From NCBI GenBank assembly GCA_947258975.1, contig CAMYKK010000024.1:1-48266 (forward strand): a stretch of DNA of 48,266 nucleotides, read 5' to 3'. This document shows positions 25,009 to 36,996 of the stretch, one piece after another. Position numbers and translations under genes: made by a program. Every line of letters starts with the position of its first letter. The first letter of the stretch is position 1. A model generated the notes under the pieces. That model searched no databases. It was not told where the DNA came from and saw only the letters and a program-made list of their open reading frames with translations. This DNA comes from an uncultured Gammaproteobacteria bacterium (GTDB lineage Bacteria > Pseudomonadota > Gammaproteobacteria > Arenicellales > JAANXG01).

Positions 25009-27039
25009 ATGTCCAATAACAAGCGCCGCATACTCGTCACCAGCGCATTGCCTTATGCCAACGGTCCGCTCCATCTGGGCCACCTAGTGGAGTACATCCA
25101 AACGGACATTTGGGCGCGGTATCAACGCCTGACGGGTCAGGAATGTTATTACGTTTGCGCGGACGATGCCCATGGCACGCCGATTATGCTGCGTGCCGAG
25201 GACGATGGCATTACGCCTGAGGAACTCATCGCGCGCATGGGCCGGGAACACCGTGCAGATTTCGCTGATTTCTTGATCGCGTTCGACAACTATCACTCCA
25301 CCCACTCGCCGGAGAACAGGCATTATTCAGAGTTGATCTACCGGCGGCTGAACGCCAATGGTCATATTTCCCGCCGCACCATCAAACAGGCTTTTGATCC
25401 GGAGAAAGGGATTTTCCTCCCTGATCGCTTCATAAAAGGGCAATGCCCGCGGTGCGCCGCCCTGGATCAATACGGTGACAATTGCGAGGTGTGCGGGTCG
25501 ACCTATAGCCCCACGGATCTGATCAATCCGATTTCTGTCGTTTCCGGAGCAGCCCCCGTTGAAAGGGAATCGGAGCACTTCTTCTTCCGGCTCAAGGATT
25601 TCCAGGACATGCTCAAGGATTGGACCGGTGGCGAACACCTGCAACCCGAAGTGAAAAACAAGCTGCAAGAATGGTTCGACGTCGGGTTGCAGGATTGGGA
25701 TATCTCACGCGACGCGCCCTATTTCGGCTTCGAAATTCCTGATGCGCCGGACAAATACTTCTACGTGTGGTTGGACGCACCGATCGGCTATATGGCGAGT
25801 TTTCGCAATCTTTGCGACCGATCCGGCATCATGTTTGACGAATTTTGGGATCCGGATGCGGAAACCGAGTTGTATCACTTTATCGGCAAGGACATTCTTT
25901 ACTTCCACGCCCTGTTCTGGCCGGCCATGCTGGATGGCGCCGGGTTCCGCAAACCCAGCGCTGTGTTTGCCCATGGATTTTTGACGGTGAACGGGAACAA
26001 AATGTCAAAATCACGCGGCACCTTCATTACCGCGCGCACTTACCTCGACCAGCTAAATCCCGAATACCTGCGCTATTATTTCGCCGCCAAACTAAACAAC
26101 CGGGTTGAAGATCTGGACCTCAATCTGGAAGATTTCGTGCAACGCGTGAATTCAGATCTGGTCGGTAAAGTCGTCAATATCGCCAGCCGCTGTGCGGGCT
26201 TTATAACTAAACGTTTCGACGGCCTCCTGGCCGCCGAGATGCATGACGCTCACCTTTATCGAGAATTCGTCGCCGCCGGCGCCGGCGTCGCAAGGTGCTA
26301 TGAAAACCGGGAATACAGCCGCGGCATGCGCGAGATAATGGCGCTCGCCGATCAAGCCAATCAATACATCGCTGATCAGAAGCCCTGGGAGATAGCCAGG
26401 CGGGGCGGCGCTGAGACGCTGCTGCACCAAGTGTGCACTACGGGACTCAATTTGTTTCGAATATTGGTAACATACCTGTCGCCGGTGATTCCGGCGACCG
26501 CGCAAAGAGTAGAAACCTTTTTGGGTTGCGGCATCATCAATCCCGGCGGTTGGAACGCGATACAGCAACCGCTTGCCAACCACCGGATCAAGCCGTATGA
26601 GCACCTGTTGCGGCGTGTGGAGGCCTCACAGACTGACGCCATGATCGAAGCATCAAGGAAAACCGGCGCCATCGCGGACCGGACCGGACCACTCGCCGCA
26701 GATCCCGTGGCGGCGACCATCAGCATCGACGACTTCAACAAAGTGGATCTACGCATTGCCCGCATCACCGAGGCGCAACGTGTCGAGGGCGCAGACAAAC
26801 TCCTAAAATTGAGCCTTGACCTCGGCGGGGAGAACCGGACCGTGTTTGCCGGCATAAAATCCGCCTATCCACCCGACGAGCTGGTTGGGCGTTACACCGT
26901 CGTCGTTGCCAATTTGGCCCCGCGTAAGATGCGGTTCGGTGTTTCGCAGGGCATGGTCCTGGCGGCGGGACCCGGCGGCCAGGACCTGTGGCTGCTGTCA
27001 CCGGATCCAGGCGCGCAACCGGGCATGCGCGTGAGGTAG
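25009..27039 (+). CDS. metG: Methionyl-tRNA synthetase
   Basis: Charges tRNA-Met. The 676-residue protein has the class I motif [12 protein letters not shown], the zinc knuckle CPRC-x9-CEVC, the KMSKSRGT loop, the anticodon-binding helical domain, and a C-terminal tRNA-binding (EMAP/Trbp111-like) domain from about residue 575 ([12 protein letters not shown] ... [14 protein letters not shown]) that dimerises the enzyme. Layout and length match the E. coli type. Confidence 0.97.
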
Positions 27040-27096
27040 ACCAAGCCTGGTCGGTGTACACAGCTCGTAATCAACACGCCGGGACAGCGCTCCGCG

Positions 27097-27750
27097 ATGC
27101 CGAGTATGGTCACAATTGCTGAGATCGATGACTGGCTTCCACAAACGCAGTGCACCCAATGCGGATACCCGAATTGCCGTGCCTATGCCGAGGCGTTGGC
27201 GGACGGGGACGCCGACATCAATCAATGTCCGCCTGGCGGCGACCACACGATTCGCGGGCTCGCCCTGCTGCTGGACATTGGCTCAAGACCACTCAATCCG
27301 TCGTTCGGCAGGCACCACTCACGCTGCGTTGCCATAATCAAAGAAGATCGATGTATCGGTTGCACTTTGTGCATCCAGGCGTGTCCTGTGGACGCGATTG
27401 TTGGTGCCGCTAAGCACATGCATACGGTCATGGAGCAGGAATGCACGGGTTGCGAACTGTGTGTGCCGGCCTGTCCGGTGGATTGCATCGATCTGCATCC
27501 TGCCGCCAGGCGTGCGCCCGAGGTCAGCTGGCGCTGGCCAGACTTTTCTCCGGCCGACACCGACCGCGCCCGGCGGCGCACCACAGCCCGTCAGCAGCGG
27601 CTCGCGGCTCAAAAGGCCCGGCGCGATGCGCGTAAACACGCCCAGCGATTGGCACAAAACCGGCATCGGCGGCAGATCAAACAAGAGATCCAATCCGCCG
27701 TCACTCGGGTCAGGACGAGACGTGCCGAATCGCGGACCAAGCGATCATGA
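27097..27750 (+). CDS. Soluble RnfB-like ferredoxin
   Basis: A 217-residue protein with the RnfB [4Fe-4S] domain (C19, C22, C27, C44) and two bacterial ferredoxin motifs, [16 protein letters not shown] and [16 protein letters not shown]. It lacks the N-terminal membrane anchor of true RnfB and ends in an Arg/Lys/Ala-rich helical tail of about 60 residues. A second Met at codon 4 is an alternative start. Its stop overlaps the nth start (ATGA). In enterics nth closes the rnfABCDGE operon; here no other rnf gene is present, so it is a stand-alone electron-transfer protein. A role in supplying electrons or clusters to Nth is only a guess. Confidence 0.85.
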
Positions 27751-28382
27751 ACGCCGCCAAACGCGCCAAAATCTTGCAGCGTTTGCGCGCGCAGAATCCC
27801 ACCCCAACCACGGAGCTCAACTATCGCAGTCAGTTCGAACTCTTGGTCGCGGTGATGCTATCCGCGCAGGCCACGGACATCAGTGTCAACAAGGCGACCG
27901 GGAACCTGTTCGAGGTCGCCAACACTCCGGCAAAAATTGCCCAAATGGGTACCCGGAGGCTGAAGCCGTTCATCAAATCCATCGGGCTTTACAATAATAA
28001 GGCCAAGAATATCGTAGCCACCGCACAGATTTTGATGGACCAACATGAAGGCCGGGTCCCGGATACACGGCAAGCCCTGGAGGCGCTTCCCGGCGTGGGC
28101 CGCAAAACCGCCAATGTGATACTCAATACCGCATTCAATCAGGCAACCATCGCCGTTGACACGCATATATTCAGGGTCGCCAATCGCACCGGCCTGGCGC
28201 CCGGAAAAACACCTCTTGAAGTGGAAAAACAATTAGTTACATGGGTCCCCGACGAATATAAACGACACACGCACCATTGGCTAATTCTGCTCGGACGCTA
28301 TACTTGTACCGCACGCAAGCCACAATGTGGGCGTTGCGTCATACTCGATCTGTGCGAATATCAAGAGAAAGCCGCAAAATGA
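27747..28382 (+). CDS. nth: Endonuclease III
   Basis: DNA glycosylase/AP lyase that removes oxidised pyrimidines. The 211-residue protein has the helix-hairpin-helix [13 protein letters not shown] with the catalytic Lys that follows the hairpin, the catalytic Asp in [11 protein letters not shown], and the C-terminal [4Fe-4S] cysteines in C-x6-C-x2-C-x5-C (TARKPQ between the first two). Both ends overlap neighbours by four bases, with the RnfB-like gene before and the FIST gene after. Confidence 0.97.
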
Positions 28383-29485
28383 GCGCCGCAAACGTCGCCA
28401 CAGGCATCTGTTACGGAACACCGGCCCGGTCCCGGCATGCCGAGCGCGCGGTGGCCCAGGCGTTGGAAAAAGCCGGGTTGACGACAGCAAACAGCGTAAT
28501 ACTGTTCCTCACCTCCGATTTTGCCCACGATCCCAAGGCCGCACTCACCGCAGCGGCGCGCGCCGCCGGTTGCACGCAGGTCTTTGGCTGTACCGGTACC
28601 GGATTACTCACCGACCAAGAGTGGCTGCTGGACAGTTCCGGGGCAGCGGCAATGGTGTTCGGCGGCGAGGTGTCACTGTCCCCGGTGCTGGATGATCCCG
28701 GCGGGTCGCTGGTGCTGAGTCTGAGTACGCCCGGGGGGTTGTCTACGCATTGGTTGGACGCGCCGGTGGGTCGCATCGGGGCATTGTCAACCGATGAGTT
28801 CGGTCACGGCCCATTCTCGGTCTGGAACAGCGCGCGCGTGGTGCGAGACGGCCACGCCCACGTGGCGATCAAAAGTGTCCGGCATTCGGTTACCGTGGGA
28901 CAAGGCGTGAGGGCGCTGACAGCGCCGCTGGAGGTGGCCGAGGTACAAGGGTTCGACATTCGCCGCCTCGGTAGTTATCCGGCGTTGAATGTATTAGTGA
29001 ATGCCCTACCGGCGTCGGTGCGGCGCATGGAGCGCATCCCACTGCACATGTTGATGTGCGGCGTCACATTCGGCGACCCCCATACCGCTATTCGCGAAGG
29101 ACGCTTTCGCCTGGATCACATCGTATCTGCCAATTCCCAAGACAGCTCCATCACCTTGTCCCATCCATTAACCCAGGGCGAGCGCCTTTTTTGGGCGATT
29201 CGCGACAAGATCACCGCAGAACGGGGGATGACCAAGGCGATAGAACGCGGTGAGCAAGATCTGGGGACAATCCCGGATTTCGCCTTGATGTTCCCCTGTA
29301 TCAGCCGCGGACCCGCGTTTTTCGGCGGCGGGGACCGAGACATCGAACTATTGAAACAGAAATATCCTGATATGCCTTTCATCGGCTTCTACGGAAACGG
29401 GGAAATCGCGCCTCTCGCTGGCGGCAGTCACCTGTATCAGTACTCCACCGTACTGGGATTATTTTCCGTGCGATCGACGTTGTAA
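28379..29485 (+). CDS. FIST-domain sensory protein
   Basis: A 368-residue cytoplasmic protein with the FIST N domain (GCTGTGLLTDQEWL, then a Gly/Ala-rich core) and FIST C domain (ending FPCISRGPAFFGGGDRDIELLK ... PFIGFYGNGEIAPL, within about residues 310-350). FIST proteins are thought to bind small ligands such as amino acids and pass the signal on. The ATG at 28379 overlaps the nth stop (ATGA) and is preferred over the longer frame, which would overlap nth by 35 codons. There is no histidine kinase or cyclase partner nearby. Confidence 0.85.
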   Translation: MSAANVATGICYGTPARSRHAERAVAQALEKAGLTTANSVILFLTSDFAHDPKAALTAAARAAGCTQVFGCTGTGLLTDQEWLLDSSGAAAMVFGGEVSLSPVLDDPGGSLVLSLSTPGGLSTHWLDAPVGRIGALSTDEFGHGPFSVWNSARVVRDGHAHVAIKSVRHSVTVGQGVRALTAPLEVAEVQGFDIRRLGSYPALNVLVNALPASVRRMERIPLHMLMCGVTFGDPHTAIREGRFRLDHIVSANSQDSSITLSHPLTQGERLFWAIRDKITAERGMTKAIERGEQDLGTIPDFALMFPCISRGPAFFGGGDRDIELLKQKYPDMPFIGFYGNGEIAPLAGGSHLYQYSTVLGLFSVRSTL

Positions 29486-29490
29486 CCGCC

Positions 29491-29515
29491 ACGCGCGCGC
29501 GCCCGCGCGTATTGT
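29491..29515 (+). terminator. Possible terminator after the FIST gene
   Basis: ACGCGCG and CGCGCGT form a perfect seven-pair GC stem with a six-base loop six bases after the FIST stop. The tail (ATTGTTCAATTT) is only moderately T-rich, so termination efficiency is uncertain. It would separate the nth transcript from the bufferin operon. Confidence 0.4.
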
Positions 29516-29595
29516 TCAATTTCGGACTCAAGCTAGGTAAGAATCCCGCCGGCTATCCGGTCTGCATTCTTCGAGGCGCAAGAAACTTTTGTCTT

Positions 29596-29614
29596 GCAAA
29601 TGAGTCTCATTGGC
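29596..29614. promoter_or_regulatory. Fur-box-like operator candidate
   Basis: GCAAATGAGTCTCATTGGC contains a perfect inverted repeat, AATGAG-T-CTCATT (29599-29611), 81 bases before the bufA ATG. The layout resembles the Pseudomonas-type Fur box (GCAAATGAGAATCATT form). No clear sigma-70 boxes could be paired with it. Binding by Fur or another metal regulator is inference. Confidence 0.45.
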
Positions 29615-29691
29615 CGACACACTTCATTTCGACTCGTGATTTCGGGTCCTTAAACCATAGATTTAACTTCAACCAACAGGAGTAGAGTTCG

Positions 29692-29952
29692 ATGACCAAC
29701 ACCAAAACCCTCGTCAGCACCGCCGTCTCCAGCCTGATGCTATTGGGGATCGCCGGTACTACGCTTCCCGCCAACGCAGCGGACATGGATAAGTGCTATG
29801 GTGTCGTGAAGGCCGGCAAGAACGATTGCCAGACGGCGAATTCGTCATGCGCAGGAACTTCGACCAAAGATGGTCAAAAAGATGCGTGGATGTACGTCCC
29901 CAAAGGCACCTGCGAGAAGCTGGTCGGTGGCAGCACCAAATCCGGCGCCTGA
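29692..29952 (+). CDS. bufA: Bufferin-type RiPP precursor (DUF2282)
   Basis: An 86-residue precursor of a metal-binding modified peptide. It has a Sec signal (hydrophobic [13 protein letters not shown], cleavage after ANA at residues 27-29) and a short mature part with four cysteines at 35, 46, 53 and 74 in the DUF2282 pattern [13 protein letters not shown] ... SCAG ... [14 protein letters not shown]. In studied bufferins, the two central Cys are converted by the MNIO enzyme to copper-binding thiooxazoles and the outer two form a disulfide. The mature peptide is exported and buffers copper. An AGGAG site lies at 29678-29682. It heads the operon, and bufB starts six bases after its stop. Confidence 0.92.
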
Positions 29953-29958
29953 TCGACT

Positions 29959-30828
29959 GTGACCCCACCGGTTGACGGTTTTACTGTGCAACCAATCCCG
30001 GCGCGAGCCGGGATTGGCCTGCGTAGCGAGCACTATCAAGATGTGATTGCAGCCCGTCCCGCGGTGGGATTCTTCGAAATCCATAGCGAGAATTTCTTCG
30101 GGCCAGGTGGCGCACCGCATCGATATTTGGAGACCATACGCGCCGACTACCCATTGAGCTTTCATGGCGTAGGAATGTCGTTGGGCTCGGTGGATCCGCT
30201 GAACAGAGAACATTGCCAGCGTCTGAAACAACTGGTGGACTATTATCAGCCGGACCTGGTCTCCGAGCATCTGTCTTGGAGTTCGTTCAACGGTCGGTAT
30301 TTTAATGACCTGCTGCCGTTGCCATACACTCCGGAGGCGTTGCACCATGTTATTGACCGCGTGCGGCAGGTCCAGGATACCCTGCAGCGGCAAATATTGG
30401 TCGAGAACGTTTCCAGCTATCTGCAATACACACATTCGACGATCCCGGAGTGGGAGTTCGTCGCCCAGGTTGCGGAACAATCCGGTTGTGGCATCTTGCT
30501 GGATGTGAACAATATTTATGTCAATGCCGTCAACCATGATTTCGATCCGCGAACATTTCTTGGTGGTGTTTCCGCACCCACGGTCAAGGAAATTCACCTG
30601 GCGGGACACACTGTCAACGAGTTCGAAGATGGGTCAATACTCATCGACACCCACGATCAGTTGGTTTGCGACGAGGTATGGCGCCTGTACCGCGACGCCG
30701 TACGCCGTTTCGGGCCCAAACCGACCTTGATTGAATGGGACACCAATCTGCCGGAATTATCGGTATTGCTCGACGAGGCCAACACCGCGCAAACCATCCT
30801 GGAGGCGCCGCATGCCCGGGTTGCGTGA
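29959..30828 (+). CDS. bufB: MNIO (DUF692) multinuclear iron oxidase
   Basis: A 289-residue TIM-barrel enzyme that modifies cysteines of the precursor using a two- or three-iron centre. Metal-ligand motifs of the family are visible: FFEIHSENF (E40, H42, E44), LSFHGVG (H69), VSEHLSW (H104), LVENVSSY, LLDVNNIYVNA, EIHLAGH, DTHD and LIEWDTNLP. The GTG start at 29959 follows the bufA stop by six bases and opens with family-like PIPARAGIGLRSEHYQD. It overlaps bufC by 17 bases, showing tight coupling to the partner protein. Confidence 0.93.
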   Translation: MTPPVDGFTVQPIPARAGIGLRSEHYQDVIAARPAVGFFEIHSENFFGPGGAPHRYLETIRADYPLSFHGVGMSLGSVDPLNREHCQRLKQLVDYYQPDLVSEHLSWSSFNGRYFNDLLPLPYTPEALHHVIDRVRQVQDTLQRQILVENVSSYLQYTHSTIPEWEFVAQVAEQSGCGILLDVNNIYVNAVNHDFDPRTFLGGVSAPTVKEIHLAGHTVNEFEDGSILIDTHDQLVCDEVWRLYRDAVRRFGPKPTLIEWDTNLPELSVLLDEANTAQTILEAPHARVA

Positions 30829-31585
30829 GCTACAGCAAGCATTCGGGTCCTCATTGGGGTCCGATGATGCATCGGAAATCGCCGCGTTGGTATGCGCCAA
30901 CGGACTCAACGGAAATCGGCGGATCCAGATATACCGCAATAATCTGTTCGTCACCCTCACGGATACACTGCGTGCAGTCTACCCGGTAGTGGAAAAACTG
31001 GTCGGTGACGGTTTTTTCCGATTTGCGGCCCACGAATTCATCCACCACTACCCTTCACGACACGGCAATCTGCACCTGTTTGGACACGAATTCGCAAGCT
31101 TCCTCAGCGAATTTGCCGCCGCCAAAGGTCACGCCTACTTACCAGACGTGGCGCGGCTCGAATGGGCGCAACACGAGGTCTACCATGCGGCCGACCACGC
31201 ATACTTGGAGCCACAATCCTTGACCGCCATCGACCCGGATTGCTATGAGTCACTGCGCTTCACCTTACATCCGGCGCGGCGGTTGCTGCACTCAGCCTAT
31301 CCGGTGGTCCGCATATGGGCGGTCAATCAGCCAGACTTCGACGGTGACCAGATGGTCGATTTGTCGGCACCGGGTGACTGCGTGCTGGTGCTGCGGATCA
31401 ATGGGGAAATCGAATTCCATACCGTCGCCCCCGCCGAGTACCGGTTTCTCGTTACCATCCACGAAGGTGACACCCTGGGGCGGGCAGTTGCGGCGGCACT
31501 CGACAAAGACCGGGATTTCGACCTGAACCACTTTCTGGTAAAACATGTGCAAAACGGCACCCTGGTCGAATTCGACTTGGCTTGA
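30812..31585 (+). CDS. bufC: MNIO partner protein (DUF2063)
   Basis: A 257-residue protein with an N-terminal DUF2063 domain (MPGLRELQQAFGS ... RIQIYRNNLFVTLTDTLRAVYPVVEKLVGD), which in the family recognises the precursor leader and docks it on the MNIO. A C-terminal domain of mixed strands follows. The frame extends upstream to 30731, but the ATG at 30812 has GGAGG at 30801-30805 and the family's usual start, and overlaps the bufB end by 17 bases. Confidence 0.92.
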   Translation: MPGLRELQQAFGSSLGSDDASEIAALVCANGLNGNRRIQIYRNNLFVTLTDTLRAVYPVVEKLVGDGFFRFAAHEFIHHYPSRHGNLHLFGHEFASFLSEFAAAKGHAYLPDVARLEWAQHEVYHAADHAYLEPQSLTAIDPDCYESLRFTLHPARRLLHSAYPVVRIWAVNQPDFDGDQMVDLSAPGDCVLVLRINGEIEFHTVAPAEYRFLVTIHEGDTLGRAVAAALDKDRDFDLNHFLVKHVQNGTLVEFDLA

Positions 31586-31632
31586 GGGCTACGTGTGACC
31601 ATAGCCACACACTAAAAAAGGAGAATCAAATC

Positions 31633-32121
31633 ATGTCTATCGCCGCTGCAGTTGCCAATATCGCGAGACCGATTATCCGCGCGCTCGAGTTTCTCAGCCC
31701 GCTGGGACTTTTGGGCATCCGGCTGTGGGTCGCCAACGTGTTTTGGAAGGCGGGATTGACAAAGGTCGCCGTGACCGATGAATTTCCGTTCATAGGCTTG
31801 GGACCCAGCACATTGATGCTGTTTCAATACGAATACAGCGTGCCATTGATCGATTACAAAACCGCGGCTTATCTTGGCACCGCGAGCGAGCTGCTATTTC
31901 CAATATTCCTGGCGATTGGCCTCGGTGGACGGTTTGCCGCCTTCGTTTTGTTCGTATTCAACATCGTGGCGGTGATATCCTATCCAGGTCTCAATGAAGC
32001 GGGTGTGCAACAGCATCAACTCTGGGGTTTGATGCTGGCATTATTGGTTTTTTACGGCCCGGGCAAAATATCAATCGATCATTTTATACGCAAACAATAC
32101 ATGGAGAGTCCGGCTTATTGA
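31633..32121 (+). CDS. bufD: DoxX family membrane protein
   Basis: A 162-residue four-helix DoxX protein. It shows SPLGLLGIRLWVANVFWKAG, YKTAAYLGTASELLFPIFLA, GRFAAFVLFVFNIVAV and LWGLMLALLVFYGPGK. DoxX proteins accompany many DUF2282/DUF692/DUF2063 operons; their role there is unclear (redox or membrane anchoring has been suggested). The ATG at 31633 has AAGGAG just before it. It follows bufC by 47 bp. The symbol bufD follows the bufABCD usage. Confidence 0.85.
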   Translation: MSIAAAVANIARPIIRALEFLSPLGLLGIRLWVANVFWKAGLTKVAVTDEFPFIGLGPSTLMLFQYEYSVPLIDYKTAAYLGTASELLFPIFLAIGLGGRFAAFVLFVFNIVAVISYPGLNEAGVQQHQLWGLMLALLVFYGPGKISIDHFIRKQYMESPAY

Positions 32122-32191
32122 GTTTTCCCCACTGGCGATACGCAAGCAACCTACGGGAAAGCACCTTGCGTTCCAGTTGGCTGATTGGCCC

Positions 32192-33184
32192 ATGAAACAG
32201 ACCACACAAATTATTCAGGTTCCCAACGACGGCCCTTCTTTTGATGATACCTTGCGCGTGAGCGGTCTGGGTTTGCTCACTCGTGCACCGTTGAGCGATC
32301 TGCAAGTCAACTTGGGCAGACTTTGTAACCAGGCTTGCTCTCACTGTCACGTGGATGCCGGTCCTAAACGCACGGAGATCATGCGATGGGAGACCATGAC
32401 ACGAATCTTGACCTGGTTTGATAAGGTGCGGCTACCACATGTGGATATCACCGGCGGGGCTCCGGAGTTGAATCCCAATTTTCGCAGATTCGTGGACGGC
32501 TTCATCGCCCTCGACGCGCGCATCACCTCGCGGTGCAATCTCACCGTGTTGTTCGAACCCGAACAGGCGGATCTTGCTGCTTGGTACGCACGCCGGCGTG
32601 TCCGGTTGGTATGCTCTCTGCCATGTTACTCAAAAAAGAACGTCGATGAGCAGCGGGGTAAAGGCGTTTTCAATAAAAGCATTGAGGCGTTACGCCTCCT
32701 CAACCGGCATGGTTACGGTATAGAGGAAGGTTTGGATCTCGACCTGGTTTACAACCCGGGGGGCGCTGTGTTGCCTCCTGCCCAGGGACCACTCGAAGCA
32801 GACTACAGAACCCGTTTGTTCGACGGTTTTGGTATTCGATTCAACTGCTTGCTCACCCTCACTAATCTCCCTATCAACCGCTTTGCGCACTATCTGCGTC
32901 GCACCGGCCAGACGCAAAGCTACCAGCAATTGCTCGTAGATAATTTTAATCGGCATAGTGTTCCTAATCTGATGTGTCGTCACCTGATGAGTGTTGACTG
33001 GTTGGGGCACGTCTTTGATTGCGATTTCAACCAGATGCTGGCGCTACCGCTTGGCGATGGTGACTTAAAGTATCTGTGGGAGCTCGATCCGGAGCAGATC
33101 AAGGACGCGCCAATTGCCGTGGATCGGCACTGCTTCGGATGCACCGCCGGCGCCGGAAGCAGTTGTGGCGGCGCGTTGGTTTAG
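32192..33184 (+). CDS. arsS: ArsS-type radical SAM protein
   Basis: A 330-residue radical SAM enzyme with the non-canonical C-x3-C-x2-C cluster site (LGRLCNQACSHC, Cys45, 49, 52). Its body fits the ArsS family: ITGGAPELNP, TSRCNLTVL, LPCYSKKNVDEQRGKGVF and LDLVYNPGG. A Cys-rich C-terminal domain (DUF3641) follows: DFNQMLALPLG ... HCFGCTAGAGSSCGG. ArsS is known for making arsenosugar precursors from methylated arsenic and SAM. It lies 70 bp after the DoxX gene on the same strand, probably on the same transcript. An upstream TTG at 32177 is a less likely start. No arsM is in the window. Confidence 0.88.
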   Translation: MKQTTQIIQVPNDGPSFDDTLRVSGLGLLTRAPLSDLQVNLGRLCNQACSHCHVDAGPKRTEIMRWETMTRILTWFDKVRLPHVDITGGAPELNPNFRRFVDGFIALDARITSRCNLTVLFEPEQADLAAWYARRRVRLVCSLPCYSKKNVDEQRGKGVFNKSIEALRLLNRHGYGIEEGLDLDLVYNPGGAVLPPAQGPLEADYRTRLFDGFGIRFNCLLTLTNLPINRFAHYLRRTGQTQSYQQLLVDNFNRHSVPNLMCRHLMSVDWLGHVFDCDFNQMLALPLGDGDLKYLWELDPEQIKDAPIAVDRHCFGCTAGAGSSCGGALV

Positions 33185-33602
33185 CCCGTATATTGCTTCC
33201 AAAACAGGCCGGGCGGGCGTCCTGATCCATCCCGGGCCGTATCTACAGCCAGCGCCTGCTGGCGGGCTCGGCGATTAAGGGAACCGACTTGAGCGTTTAA
33301 TCTGGGATCGGATTCCCGGTTTCACGTTAGTGGTTCGCGCGACACCGCTCGCACCCGCACGACTGCTGATTGTGTATCGTTCGGGCGCGAGTCGTTACAC
33401 GTTGATGATTGGCCTGGGTCCCTGACTGTTCTCGGTCCGCTTCAGGTTACCGGTCTTGCGGGATTATTGGGTTCCAATTCTGGACTACTCGATGATCATT
33501 ATAAGCGGCATGTTACGACTCGTGACACTGCTGGTGCTTTGGATATGCGCGAATCACGTCCACACACCGCATTGAGAAAATCGATCAATTGAGAATTGAG
33601 AC
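33185..33602. other. Non-coding spacer between arsS and terC
   Basis: The 418 bases hold no convincing gene on either strand: frames are short and interrupted. A hairpin GCCAGC-GCCT-GCTGGC lies at 33248-33263, 64 bases after the arsS stop, without a T-tract. The composition is similar to nearby coding DNA, so it may be decayed sequence, but I recognise no family in it. Confidence 0.6.
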
Positions 33603-34426
33603 ATGGCTGATATAATGACCATCGAAAATCTCGCCAACCTCGGCGTGCTGATATTCCTCCAGGCCGTATTTGGCTTCGATAATCTCCTGTAATCTCCATC
33701 GAATCAAAACGCGCGCCACCGAAGTATCAAGCTACGGTACGGCGCTGGGGAATCCTCATCGCGATTGTATTGCGCATCGTGTTGCTGTTCGTGATGATTA
33801 AGCTCATTACATCTCTGACCGAGCCACTTTTCCATATTGACATCCCCGGGGTGGTGGAAGGGTCATTCAATTTTGCCACAGTAGTTTTTTTATTGGGTGG
33901 CGGTTTCATCATGTACACCGCGGTTAAAGAGATCTCCCATATGCTTTCTGTGGAGCATCTGGAGTCAGAGGGCGCGAGCGCGATAAAGAAACAGGTCACG
34001 ACGGTAATCGCTTCCATTGTTTTAATGAACTTAATCTTCAGTTTCGATTCGATTCTTTCGGCGCTGGCAATCACCGATGTGTTTTTAGTGCTGGCGGTGG
34101 CAATCGTTATTTCAGGCGTTGCTATGCTGATGCTGGCTGACCATGTCTCGGAGTTTCTGCGTCGCAACCGCAAGTATGAGGTCCTGGGCCTGTTTATTCC
34201 CCTCATCGTAGGTGTGGTATTACTCGGTGAGGGCGGTCATGTGGCACACCTGAAACTCATGGGTTTCCCCGTCGAACCGATGTCGAAAACAACATTTTAT
34301 TTCTCCATCGCCGTGCTCGTCGTCATTGACATTATGCAATCCGGCTATCAGCGAAAGCTTAATACTGCGCGACAGCTCGAGTCAGCACAGGCGCCGGTAG
34401 CAAGGGGTCAGACTCCGCGGAGTTGA
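33603..34426 (+). pseudogene. terC: TerC family membrane protein, frameshifted
   Basis: TerC-family proteins are multi-helix inner-membrane proteins linked to tellurite resistance and manganese export. From the ATG at 33603 the frame reads ADIMTIENLANLGVLIFLQ then AVFGFDNLL and stops at a TAA (33690-33692). The next frame, beginning at 33692, continues with the expected ISIESKRAP ... RRWGILIAIVLRIVLLF and runs to 34426, with FSFDSILSALAITD, the second conserved acidic motif. The family has LYISIES here, so one base of the Tyr codon (TA-) is missing. This is a one-base deletion, either true decay or a sequencing error. The C-terminus runs into repeat-like DNA (VARGQTPRS). Confidence 0.85.
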
Positions 34427-34568
34427 ATTCTCAAAGATTCAACCGGCGAGAGGCCGTCCGCGAACAACGGCTCCCCGATCTTTTCGCGTCCCACAAACAA
34501 ACGATCTGAGGCTGGCTCGTACGATCAATGAATGGGGGTCCCCGTTAAATTTGTTGGGAGTCCCCGTT
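34404..34568. repeat. Repeat and palindrome debris after terC
   Basis: AGGGGTCAGACTCC at 34404 leads into the palindrome ACTCCGCGGAGT (34412-34423) and an inverted repeat GTTGAAT/ATTCAAC (34422-34443). Further on, TGGGGGTCCCCGTT (34533-34546) recurs as TGGGAGTCCCCGTT (34555-34568) at a 22-base period. GGGGTCAGACTC-type and GGGGTCCCCGTT-type motifs are, from memory, common at the edges of REP-associated or IS200-like transposase genes, but no transposase remains. Confidence 0.4.
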
Positions 34569-34577
34569 TATCGTACC

Positions 34578-35471
34578 TCAATGTGCTCCGTTGAGAATGT
34601 TTTCGACAACTCGGATTTCCTCCTCAGCCTCATGCAAAATGCACAGGGATTTTTGCGGCGTCAATTCTCCCAGGGCCAATTTGCTGAAGGCCGGCACATC
34701 GTCGATGTTGGGGAGTTGAGTCGATCGGCTTGTCCCGACGTAAGCGTGCAGTTGCGCGATCACGAGCAAGTCGACATAGTCCGCTTGCTGGGTGCCTTCG
34801 TACGTCCAGTCCTCGGAGTGTAAAGCCGCCTCGACATAAATGTCGGCGAATTCCCATTCACATAGAATCATCGCGCTAATACGAGCCTGCAGGCAATAGA
34901 CGAATCGATCGAGCACTTCGGGTTTTGCTGCAAGTTCCGGGTAGGACTCGGCTTTTCTCAGCAGCGGGATCGCACCGATGTCGTGCAATATTCCCGTGAG
35001 CATGGCTTTATCGGCGGACAGGCCGGGGGTCTTCTTGGCGAGAACGTGGCACAAGGCGGCGACATGGGCGCTGTGTTGCCACAAGTTTTGCATACGCGTG
35101 CGCAGCGCGCTCGAGTTGGTTCGAAACGAGTTTTTCAGGACGAAGCTGATGATCAGGTTTTGCGTCGTTTCGCGACCCAGACGCGTCACTGCATCCGGGC
35201 AGCTTTCAATCTTTCCTCTGCCGCCGTACGCGGGGCTGTTTACGACCTTGACCAGTCGTGCGGTCAGCGTTGGATCCATCTGTATGATGCGGGCGATGTC
35301 GTGGCTGTCGGTATTCGGATCATTAATGGCACGTCCCACTCGGATGGCGACGTCTGGAATGCTGGGAAACTGCAACTTGCCCGACTTCAAGTCGTCGAGG
35401 AACGCACGAACATAGTCGCGTGTGGTGTTTCCGTGAATGGCTTGAGCCGCTGCCGGCCTGGACGTTGTCAT
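34578..35471 (-). CDS. HDOD-domain signalling protein
   Basis: A roughly 297-residue protein with a single HDOD domain (FPSIPDVAIRVGRAINDPNTD ... DPTLTARLVKVVNSPAY ... LTGILHDIG), a metal-poor relative of HD phosphohydrolases. HDOD proteins act as scaffolds in stress, motility or c-di-GMP-linked regulation. No output domain (GGDEF, EAL, kinase) is fused. The frame extends 11 codons to 35504, but the ATG at 35471 with GGGAA upstream is preferred. It faces terC and lies between the intact arsS and the arsS relic, so it may have arrived by insertion. Confidence 0.85.
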   Translation of the reverse strand: MTTSRPAAAQAIHGNTTRDYVRAFLDDLKSGKLQFPSIPDVAIRVGRAINDPNTDSHDIARIIQMDPTLTARLVKVVNSPAYGGRGKIESCPDAVTRLGRETTQNLIISFVLKNSFRTNSSALRTRMQNLWQHSAHVAALCHVLAKKTPGLSADKAMLTGILHDIGAIPLLRKAESYPELAAKPEVLDRFVYCLQARISAMILCEWEFADIYVEAALHSEDWTYEGTQQADYVDLLVIAQLHAYVGTSRSTQLPNIDDVPAFSKLALGELTPQKSLCILHEAEEEIRVVENILNGAH

Positions 35472-35650
35472 ATTGCGTCGTTCCCAATATTGCGAGTATT
35501 CCACTTTCGCCGCCCGGGCATATCTGTACCGCGCCGTATGACGCCTGCATACTTGAGATCGGGCATCTCAATCCTCTATCGGCGTTCCGGCGCCAAATCT
35601 TTAGCATCGAGTCGCGCGGTTACGTATAAAGATTCCCGGATGCCGGCACG

Positions 35651-35860
35651 ATGTGCCGCCACCTGTCGGGCGACGACTGGATGTGGCAGACGACTACGAC
35701 TTAGATCAAATGCTGCCCTTACCGCCTCGGCGAGCGTAATTTAAAGGGTCTGCGGGAACTCAGCCCGCAAGAGATTAACGACGCGCCAATTGCCGTCGAT
35801 CGGCACTGCTTTGGATGCACCGCCGGAGCTGGAAGCAATTGTGGCGGTACGTTGGATTAG
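35651..35860 (+). pseudogene. Relic of a second arsS gene (3' end)
   Basis: Between the HDOD gene and dnaJ, the plus strand matches the last third of arsS. It starts with MCRHL (35651), then after a small deletion continues DDYDLDQMLPLP, and after another shift continues LKGLRELSPQEINDAPIAV up to the stop TAG at 35858-35860. The final 81 bases (35780-35860) match 33104-33184 with eight substitutions, five of them at third codon positions, and encode [18 protein letters not shown]. At least two frameshifts and no start make it non-functional. The silent bias shows it diverged as a working gene first. Similarity may extend a little upstream (FPDAGT before MCRHL). Its stop overlaps the dnaJ stop codon on the other strand. 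Confidence 0.85.
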
Positions 35861-36996
35861 GTGACCAAATCGTCGAAGAAGGAACGCAGTTTATCTGTCC
35901 AGGAACTTTCACGCGGGCTATGGCGCGCGCCGCCATCGCGAATCGATTCTTCCACTTCCTTGAGCAATTCCTTTTGCCGCTTGGTGAGGTTCACCGGCGT
36001 TTCCGCGGTGATTTTGCAATACAAGTCACCCACGCGTCCGCCACGCACGTTTTTTACGCCCTTGGCACGCAATCGGAAGACTTTCTCAGTCTGTGACTCC
36101 GGCGGCACCTTGATGCGCGCCCGGCCATCCAGGGTGGGGACCTCCAGTTCACCGCCAAGCGCCAGGGCGGCGAAACTCACTGGCATTTCGCAGTATAGAT
36201 CTTCGCCGTCCCGTTTAAAGATGGGATGCGGCTTGATCTGGATCGATACGTACAGATCGCCAGGCACGCCATTTTTACCACCGCTCTCGCCTTCGCCGGC
36301 CAGTCTAATCTGATCGCCCTCGTCGATACCGGCTGGAACTTTTACCGACAACGCCTTGGTTTCCTTGACCAAACCGGATCCATGGCAGCGGCCACAGGGA
36401 TCATTGATTACCGAACCACTTCCGCGGCACGCAGGACAGGTTTGCTGCACGGAAAAGAAACCTTGTTGCATTCGCACCTGGCCCGCCCCGCCGCACGTGG
36501 AGCACGACACCGGCGATGTCCCTGGCGACGCGCCGGTACCGGTGCATCGATCACAGACGACTGAAGTAGGAACACGAATCTTCGCTTCGGTGCCGCGTAC
36601 CGCCTCTTCGAGACTTAACGGCAGGTTAAATCGCAGGTCGGCGCCGCGGGCCCGCCCGCGGGAGCGCTGGGGGCTGCCACCTCCGAAAATGTCGCCAAAG
36701 ATATCTCCGAAAATGTCGCCGAATCCCCCGGCCCCAGGCCCGTGGAATCCGCCTCCGGCGCCGGCCGTGGGATCGACCCCGGCATGTCCGAACTGGTCAT
36801 AAGCGGCGCGCTTTTGCCCGTCGCTGAGAATCTCATAGGCCTCCTTGGCTTCCTTGAATCTTGCCTCGGCGTTCTCGTCACCGGTATTCCGATCCGGATG
36901 ATGCTTCATCGCCAACCGCCGGTACGCCTTCTTGATTTCGGCTTCCGACGCGTTGCGTTGAATTCCTAAGGTCTCATAGTAATCACGCTTAGCCAT
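35857..36996 (-). CDS. dnaJ: Chaperone DnaJ (Hsp40)
   Basis: Co-chaperone that delivers substrates to DnaK and stimulates its ATPase. The 379-residue protein has the J domain ([23 protein letters not shown] motif in MKHHPDRN), a Gly/Phe-rich region, four zinc repeats ([32 protein letters not shown]) and the C-terminal substrate domain. It is last in the hrcA-grpE-dnaK-dnaJ set, but a strong terminator separates it from dnaK. Its stop codon TAA shares bases with the stop of the arsS relic. Confidence 0.97.

Follow-up and report, generated by a model that had tools for sequence, protein, structure and literature searches.

The window analysed here is a stretch of 48,266 nucleotides from an uncultured gammaproteobacterium of the order Arenicellales (contig CAMYKK010000024.1), and the system in question is a complete bufferin operon of the Buf1 type, bufA-bufB-bufC-doxX, followed by an intact arsS gene (29692-33184). 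All five frames are open and lie on a single strand. bufA (29692..29952, +) encodes an 86-residue Buf1 (DUF2282) bufferin precursor (Pfam DUF2282, E 2.9e-24) with four cysteines at residues 35, 46, 53 and 74 and a hydrophobic N-terminus, where the signal peptide was assigned by eye only. bufB (29959..30828, +), with a GTG start, encodes the MNIO bufferin maturase (NF050167 MNIO_BufB, 398.4 bits against a cut-off of 310; PF05114, E 5.7e-111). It is overlapped by 17 nt by bufC (30812..31585, +), whose product, the DUF2063 partner protein, lies above the gathering score of PF09836 (E 6.7e-23) and reaches 59 bits with the narrower model NF050145 HvfC, below its cut-off of 142. Similarly, the DoxX membrane protein of the operon (doxX, 31633..32121, +) is above the gathering score of PF07681 (E 1.7e-12) and below the cut-off of 80 of the narrower model NF050144 HvfX (48.8 bits). 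A gap of 70 nt (32122..32191, +), read from the sequence and from an alignment with four genus mates, separates doxX from arsS, which runs from an ATG at 32192 to 33184 (+). The 330-residue product is a radical SAM enzyme with a match of 419.4 bits to TIGR04167 (cut-off 300) and a DUF3641 domain; the CX3CX2C motif is at residues 45, 49 and 52 and the C-terminus is Cys-rich. The preliminary description of this locus had listed a DUF2282 precursor with four cysteines, a DUF692 MNIO, a DUF2063 partner, a DoxX protein and, 70 bp further on, an intact radical SAM gene with a Cys-rich end, and all of these assignments were confirmed.

How often the two stand together was surveyed, with adjacency tallied from the arsS side. 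In 60 genomes of Arenicellales, the window's own among them, arsS was found in 47 and an MNIO gene in 37. The bufferin-arsS array was present in 23 of the 47 arsS genomes, with the same gene order and strand. In 22 of them the MNIO gene precedes arsS by about 1.3-1.5 kb, on one contig and in the same orientation; in the remaining one (G025) bufC-doxX-arsS is seen and the contig ends inside bufC. Linkage could not be judged in two genomes (G011 and G014), whose contigs start inside arsS or 198 bp before it. An assembly accident or a one-off arrangement was rejected in view of the 23 linked genomes. Outside the order, the array was also found in two genomes of family f106 (G259, G153). The same row of five genes is shared by five families within the order and by this further one.

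Elsewhere in the class, the bufferin operon is directly upstream of arsS at 2 of 136 loci, both from f106, or at 2 of the 134 that have at least 1.5 kb of upstream sequence (L251 and L290 have less). This class set omits the window, its order mates G021 and G029, and G135, G145 and G194, in which arsS is partial; one of the two arsS genes of G247 is included. Across phyla, the array was seen at one arsS locus among the best 80 of 588, a selected and not a random set in which 74 have at least 1.5 kb upstream, and this locus (L095) comes from the same order. Neighbouring genes were located by tblastn, the queries being the proteins of the window and a small number of additional ones, a search that remote relatives may escape. 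The idea that arsS is a general bufferin gene was rejected on these counts. Other arrangements were observed. A divergent bufBC pair of another type lies about 4 kb from an arsS-arsM cluster in G156 and G261 (L051 and L052), at L051 together with a Cys/Lys-rich precursor-like open reading frame. In G119 (L293), unlike in the window, a bufferin operon follows arsS in the same orientation at a distance of 2.5 kb, and at L088 an MNIO gene (39% identity) is 3.3 kb upstream of arsS.

According to PMC12159101, which cites the ArsS study, arsenic is adenosylated by a radical SAM enzyme when arsenosugars are made; in Synechocystis, ArsS works with ArsM (PMC8552651). Co-occurrence was determined in 276 genomes of the class, in which the sets of arsS, TIGR04283, ArsM and MNIO comprise 142, 148, 128 and 165 genomes; the phi values carry no correction for kinship. 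arsS and the TIGR04283 glycosyltransferase were found together in 138 genomes, arsS alone in 4, the glycosyltransferase alone in 10 and neither in 124 (phi 0.90). The value for ArsM was 0.57. In contrast, phi was only 0.13 (p 0.028) for MNIO, with 94 genomes having both genes, 48 arsS alone, 71 MNIO alone and 63 neither; an MNIO match at E<=1e-40 is thus missing from 48 of the 142 arsS genomes. Within the 60 genomes of the order, the corresponding phi values were 0.80 for TIGR04283, 0.33 for ArsM and 0.33 for MNIO. In the set of 136 class loci described above, 101 encode ArsM, GT82 or GT83 within 5 kb of arsS. In the window's genome, ArsM-family genes are located on contigs C101 (365 bits, above the cut-off) and C94 (241 bits, below it), and TIGR04283 matches over the cut-off on C12 and C26, with GT82 adjoining GT83 on C12. 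ArsS in this genome therefore has its usual partners, dispersed on other contigs. The preliminary description had held that an arsM elsewhere in the genome, together with an identical mature peptide after deletion of arsS, would speak against its proposal of a linked function; of the two, the arsM elsewhere was found, one of its two hits being under the cut-off.

The arsS genes of this lineage are mostly found within a block of metG-rnfB-nth, frequently with FIST and a DUF1841 gene. In the window the block metG-rnfB-nth-FIST occupies 25009..29485 (+), with Pfam matches to methionyl-tRNA synthetase, FeS/Fer4, endonuclease III and FIST; rnfB was named by eye, Pfam giving the FeS and Fer4 domains. 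The bufferin operon sits inside the block and is frequently absent while arsS remains: arsS directly follows nth or FIST without a bufferin operon at L038, L043, L069-L071, L073-L076 and L083-L087, and the cross-phyla scan contributed further bufferin-free block loci (L090-L092). Two genomes (L062, L089) have doxX-arsS without bufABC, which is what loss of bufABC would leave, although an older doxX-arsS pair is conceivable. In G331 a bufferin operon of the same type is distant from arsS. Nothing is inserted between doxX and arsS in any of the 25 linked loci, although the outer flanking genes differ. The case illustrates how an old syntenic block can underlie the proximity of two gene sets.

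Phylogenetic trees, in which the root was placed for drawing only, were compared with the linkage labels. The 61 rows of the ArsS tree fall into clade II (47 rows, split 100/100) and clade I (14 rows). All block-bearing rows of the neighbourhood comparison belong to clade II, and 11 of the 14 clade I rows are near an ArsM or an arsenosugar-glycosyltransferase gene. The linked and unlinked labels require 8 changes on the ArsS tree against 19.6 in shuffles, a number that may be an overcount as G011 and G014 were scored unlinked here and in the residue comparison. On the BufB tree the linked label requires 2 changes against a shuffled mean of 12.4. One old association with several losses fits the trees best.

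Variants of the operon itself were also seen. In G035 (L172) a second bufA lies upstream of the linked bufferin operon, between the DUF1841 gene and bufA. A contig of the window's genus (G004:C43, L168) carries a second bufA, 90.7% identical to that of the window, followed by a bufB broken by several stops. In family f10 (L173-L175; G051, G021, G034) the MNIO is 534-564 residues long, about double the length, and its gene follows two DUF2282 precursor genes.

Together, these results make it likely that a standard copper-buffering Buf1 operon lies directly upstream of a resident, independently acting arsS at an old chromosomal site. By analogy with what is established for the family, BufB with BufC would convert the cysteines of secreted BufA to copper-binding thiooxazoles, and DoxX would serve as an accessory membrane protein. 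The cytoplasmic ArsS would carry out its own small-molecule chemistry, transferring an adenosyl group onto methylated arsenic, and its product would feed arsenosugar-type glycosyltransferases encoded elsewhere in the genome, as family knowledge and the co-occurrence suggest. Bufferin maturation would be independent of ArsS. Judging from the trees, the adjacency would be old and inherited within one gammaproteobacterial lineage with several losses, and the spacing in several families, resembling that of one transcription unit, means that in those families arsS probably receives at least read-through expression.

Several observations weigh against an independently acting arsS at an old site. ArsM went unmatched in 18 of the order's 23 linked genomes (E<=1e-30; E<=1e-15 with another profile), from which the usual supply of ArsS substrate therefore seems to be missing. 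The association of arsS with MNIO in the order is not negligible (p 0.021 for the phi of 0.33 given above). The overlaps of doxX and arsS in two families, described below, are tighter than chance neighbours need. Further, the block is not universal: the unlinked L072 shows no part of it, the linked L079 is without metG, rnfB and nth within a stretch of 15 kb, and the linked L036 has FIST and no nth.

The doxX-arsS gap bears on the rival explanations, and gaps were measured to candidate ATG starts of arsS. At 13 of the 25 linked loci the candidate start of arsS lies no more than 30 nt past the stop of doxX: it overlaps that stop in 4 loci of two families, and 9 more have gaps of 8-30 nt. The candidate gap is 67-70 nt in the window's genus, where an alignment of 5 sequences reveals a terminator- or attenuator-like hairpin, of which the window has a decayed copy (32153..32177, +). 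The stem has 10 pairs; 48 of the 50 cells are paired and 3 pairs are changed on both sides. It is fully paired in the four genus mates, one of which has a G-U and another three compensated pairs. Both unpaired cells belong to the window's copy, whose fold, with two mismatches, is no better than that of shuffles (z 0.23). With five sequences the evidence for the hairpin is modest, one of five covariation measures is not above shuffles, and in G005 the minimum-energy fold favours a different pairing. Outside the genus, the gap of G018 contains a 12-pair hairpin with a T run and that of G027 a hairpin followed by T-rich sequence. A promoter and terminator scan did not flag the window's gap, the number of sites being not above that in shuffles, and an Rfam scan of 29400-36100 gave zero matches. 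Shared transcription of doxX and arsS is plausible from this spacing. As the gaps are tight or overlapping in some species and hold terminator-like hairpins in others, the coupling probably differs between species.

In a joint metal and metalloid stress operon, arsS would have been retained on the bufferin transcript because stress from copper and from arsenic occur together, and one signal would serve both copper buffering and organoarsenic synthesis, with no physical interaction between the two systems. This explanation overlaps with that of an independently acting arsS, and what sets it apart, a selected and shared regulation, is possible, though we hold it only tentatively. It agrees with the conservation of the five-gene arrangement in six families (five within Arenicellales, one beyond), with the short or overlapping gaps, and with TIGR04283, which scores over the cut-off in both f106 genomes and in 22 of the 23 linked members of the order (the exception, G026, is 88% complete). 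It is at odds with the lack of ArsM in most linked genomes, with the terminator-featured hairpins in the window's genus, G018 and G027, and with the persistence of arsS in place when bufABC is absent. The joint copper/arsenic defence suggested in the preliminary description thus gained from the spacing in several families and lost from the hairpin of the genus and from the linked genomes outside it, most of which are without ArsM.

In pure hitch-hiking, the bufferin operon would have landed beside arsS once and been carried along with neither shared expression nor shared function. The flanking block, present with or without the bufferin operon, the terminator-like hairpin of the window's genus and the weak class-wide co-occurrence of arsS and MNIO are all compatible with such an origin. 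We regard this pure form as possible, hardly less so than the joint operon; against it stand the overlapping and short gaps and the absence of any insertion between doxX and arsS in the 25 linked loci despite varying flanks.

The linked genomes without ArsM were considered further. Among the linked genomes of the order, ArsM was matched only in the five of the window's genus, one match being partial; with a different ArsM profile, four of the five were recovered and none of the remaining linked genomes. G025 is outside the linked set of the co-occurrence tables, and its ArsM and TIGR04283 status was taken from profile searches. Both f106 genomes have an ArsM match, each with one internal stop. 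In the class, 37 of the 142 arsS genomes are without ArsM at E<=1e-20 and 35 of the 37 keep TIGR04283; in the order, where the threshold was E<=1e-30, ArsM is lacking in 30 of the 47 and TIGR04283 is kept in 29 of the 30. The looser of these two thresholds may admit other methyltransferases. In such genomes ArsS may use imported methylarsenicals or another substrate, and ArsS with its glycosyltransferase may have an ArsM-independent role. This question of an ArsS/glycosyltransferase role without ArsM may matter more than the linkage itself. A bolder proposal for the ArsM-less linked lineages is that clade II ArsS, with its extra Cys141, was repurposed in a translationally coupled bufferin-ArsS operon, acting on the bufferin peptide or adenosylating, in place of dimethylarsenite, some other metalloid or a thiol species; we regard it as improbable.

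According to a further suggestion of the preliminary description, the bufferin peptide could receive a second modification from ArsS. The linkage in nearly half of the arsS genomes of the order and the missing ArsM of many linked genomes could be taken in its favour, as could the extra Cys141, present in 94% of clade II rows and replaced by Ala in clade I. The radical SAM core is also weakly similar to peptide-modifying enzymes, e.g. YydG, in the family models far under the cut-off and in a PDB sequence search at E 5.8e-7. However, Cys141 belongs to the whole of clade II, and no ArsS position separates the 25 linked members from the 22 others at 80% or more in each group. Ten cysteines are common to both clades, and Cys 45, 49, 52, 145, 262, 277, 314, 317 and 325 are invariant across the 61 ArsS, gaps aside. 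Pfam (E<=1e-3) found Radical_SAM and DUF3641 only, with no SPASM domain, and the stretch ahead of the first cluster cysteine, 44 residues, may be short for an N-terminal RRE domain. In the PDB search, ArsS drew six matches to radical SAM enzymes, all of them weak and none carrying the name ArsS. The four BufA cysteines are kept in all aligned homologues (22/22 linked and 14/14 unlinked, 36/36 together). At several positions the linked BufA set varies less than the 14 unlinked Buf1 peptides, which are of mixed type; the unlinked BufA of G331, of the same type and encoded far from arsS, has the linked pattern. Linkage-specific residues were sought in BufA and none were found; linked BufA is an ordinary Buf1 peptide. 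Of the co-occurrence with MNIO looked for in a radical SAM maturase, the class shows hardly any. These sequence results argue against a dedicated second modification of BufA. With arsS retained where bufABC is absent, and following TIGR04283 far more closely than MNIO, modification of the peptide by ArsS is unlikely and stands as the least probable of the rival explanations.

Downstream of arsS, the decayed remnant of another arsS copy, its 3' part, lies beside dnaJ (35651..35860, +; 80.5% DNA identity over 154 bp). It matches TIGR04167 positions 264-303 (E 1.3e-8) and has an in-frame stop. Since intact arsS directly adjoins dnaJ in the genus mate G002, the terC/HDOD stretch probably came in between arsS and dnaJ with a partial arsS duplication. 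The terC-family gene itself (33600-34426, +) looks broken: the reading frame that begins at 33603 ends at a stop at 33692, and the remainder of the TerC match falls in a different frame.

Extra conserved genes are described in bufferin clusters in extremely low proportions, according to the available part of PMC12452194. The terms 'arseno' and DUF3641 are absent from the main text of that paper, its supplement lying outside the search, and 'arsen' is absent from the part of PMC13097082 that was available. No title or abstract opening joining a bufferin operon and arsS was found, in a search that did not cover subscription papers and supplements. The earlier remark that arsS is not an established bufferin component agrees with this, and the linkage may not have been described previously. 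Two gene sets concerned with metals are coupled here across a lineage, a coupling not found described in the literature searched.

The locus was compared with three known systems. The radical SAM maturases of RiPPs reportedly described by Lewis in 2021 form thio(seleno)oxazoles; as in the window, a radical SAM enzyme is found there close to a RiPP precursor that contains cysteine. We take them to be a different family from the window's ArsS, which has no SPASM hit and gives no sign of touching the peptide. The similarity to the ArsS of arsenosugar biosynthesis (TIGR04167) lies in the score of 419 bits, the 10 cysteines in common with the other clade, and the TIGR04283 and ArsM-family genes in the same genome. 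In contrast to that system, the window's ArsS belongs to a distinct clade, which in this order is mostly encoded away from ArsM and glycosyltransferases and often in ArsM-less genomes. Finally, the available part of the account of the Buf1 operon bufABC-doxX (PMC12452194) gives the same four genes, precursor family and Cys pattern as in the window, where BufB is over the NCBIfam cut-off; to this known operon the window adds arsS downstream.

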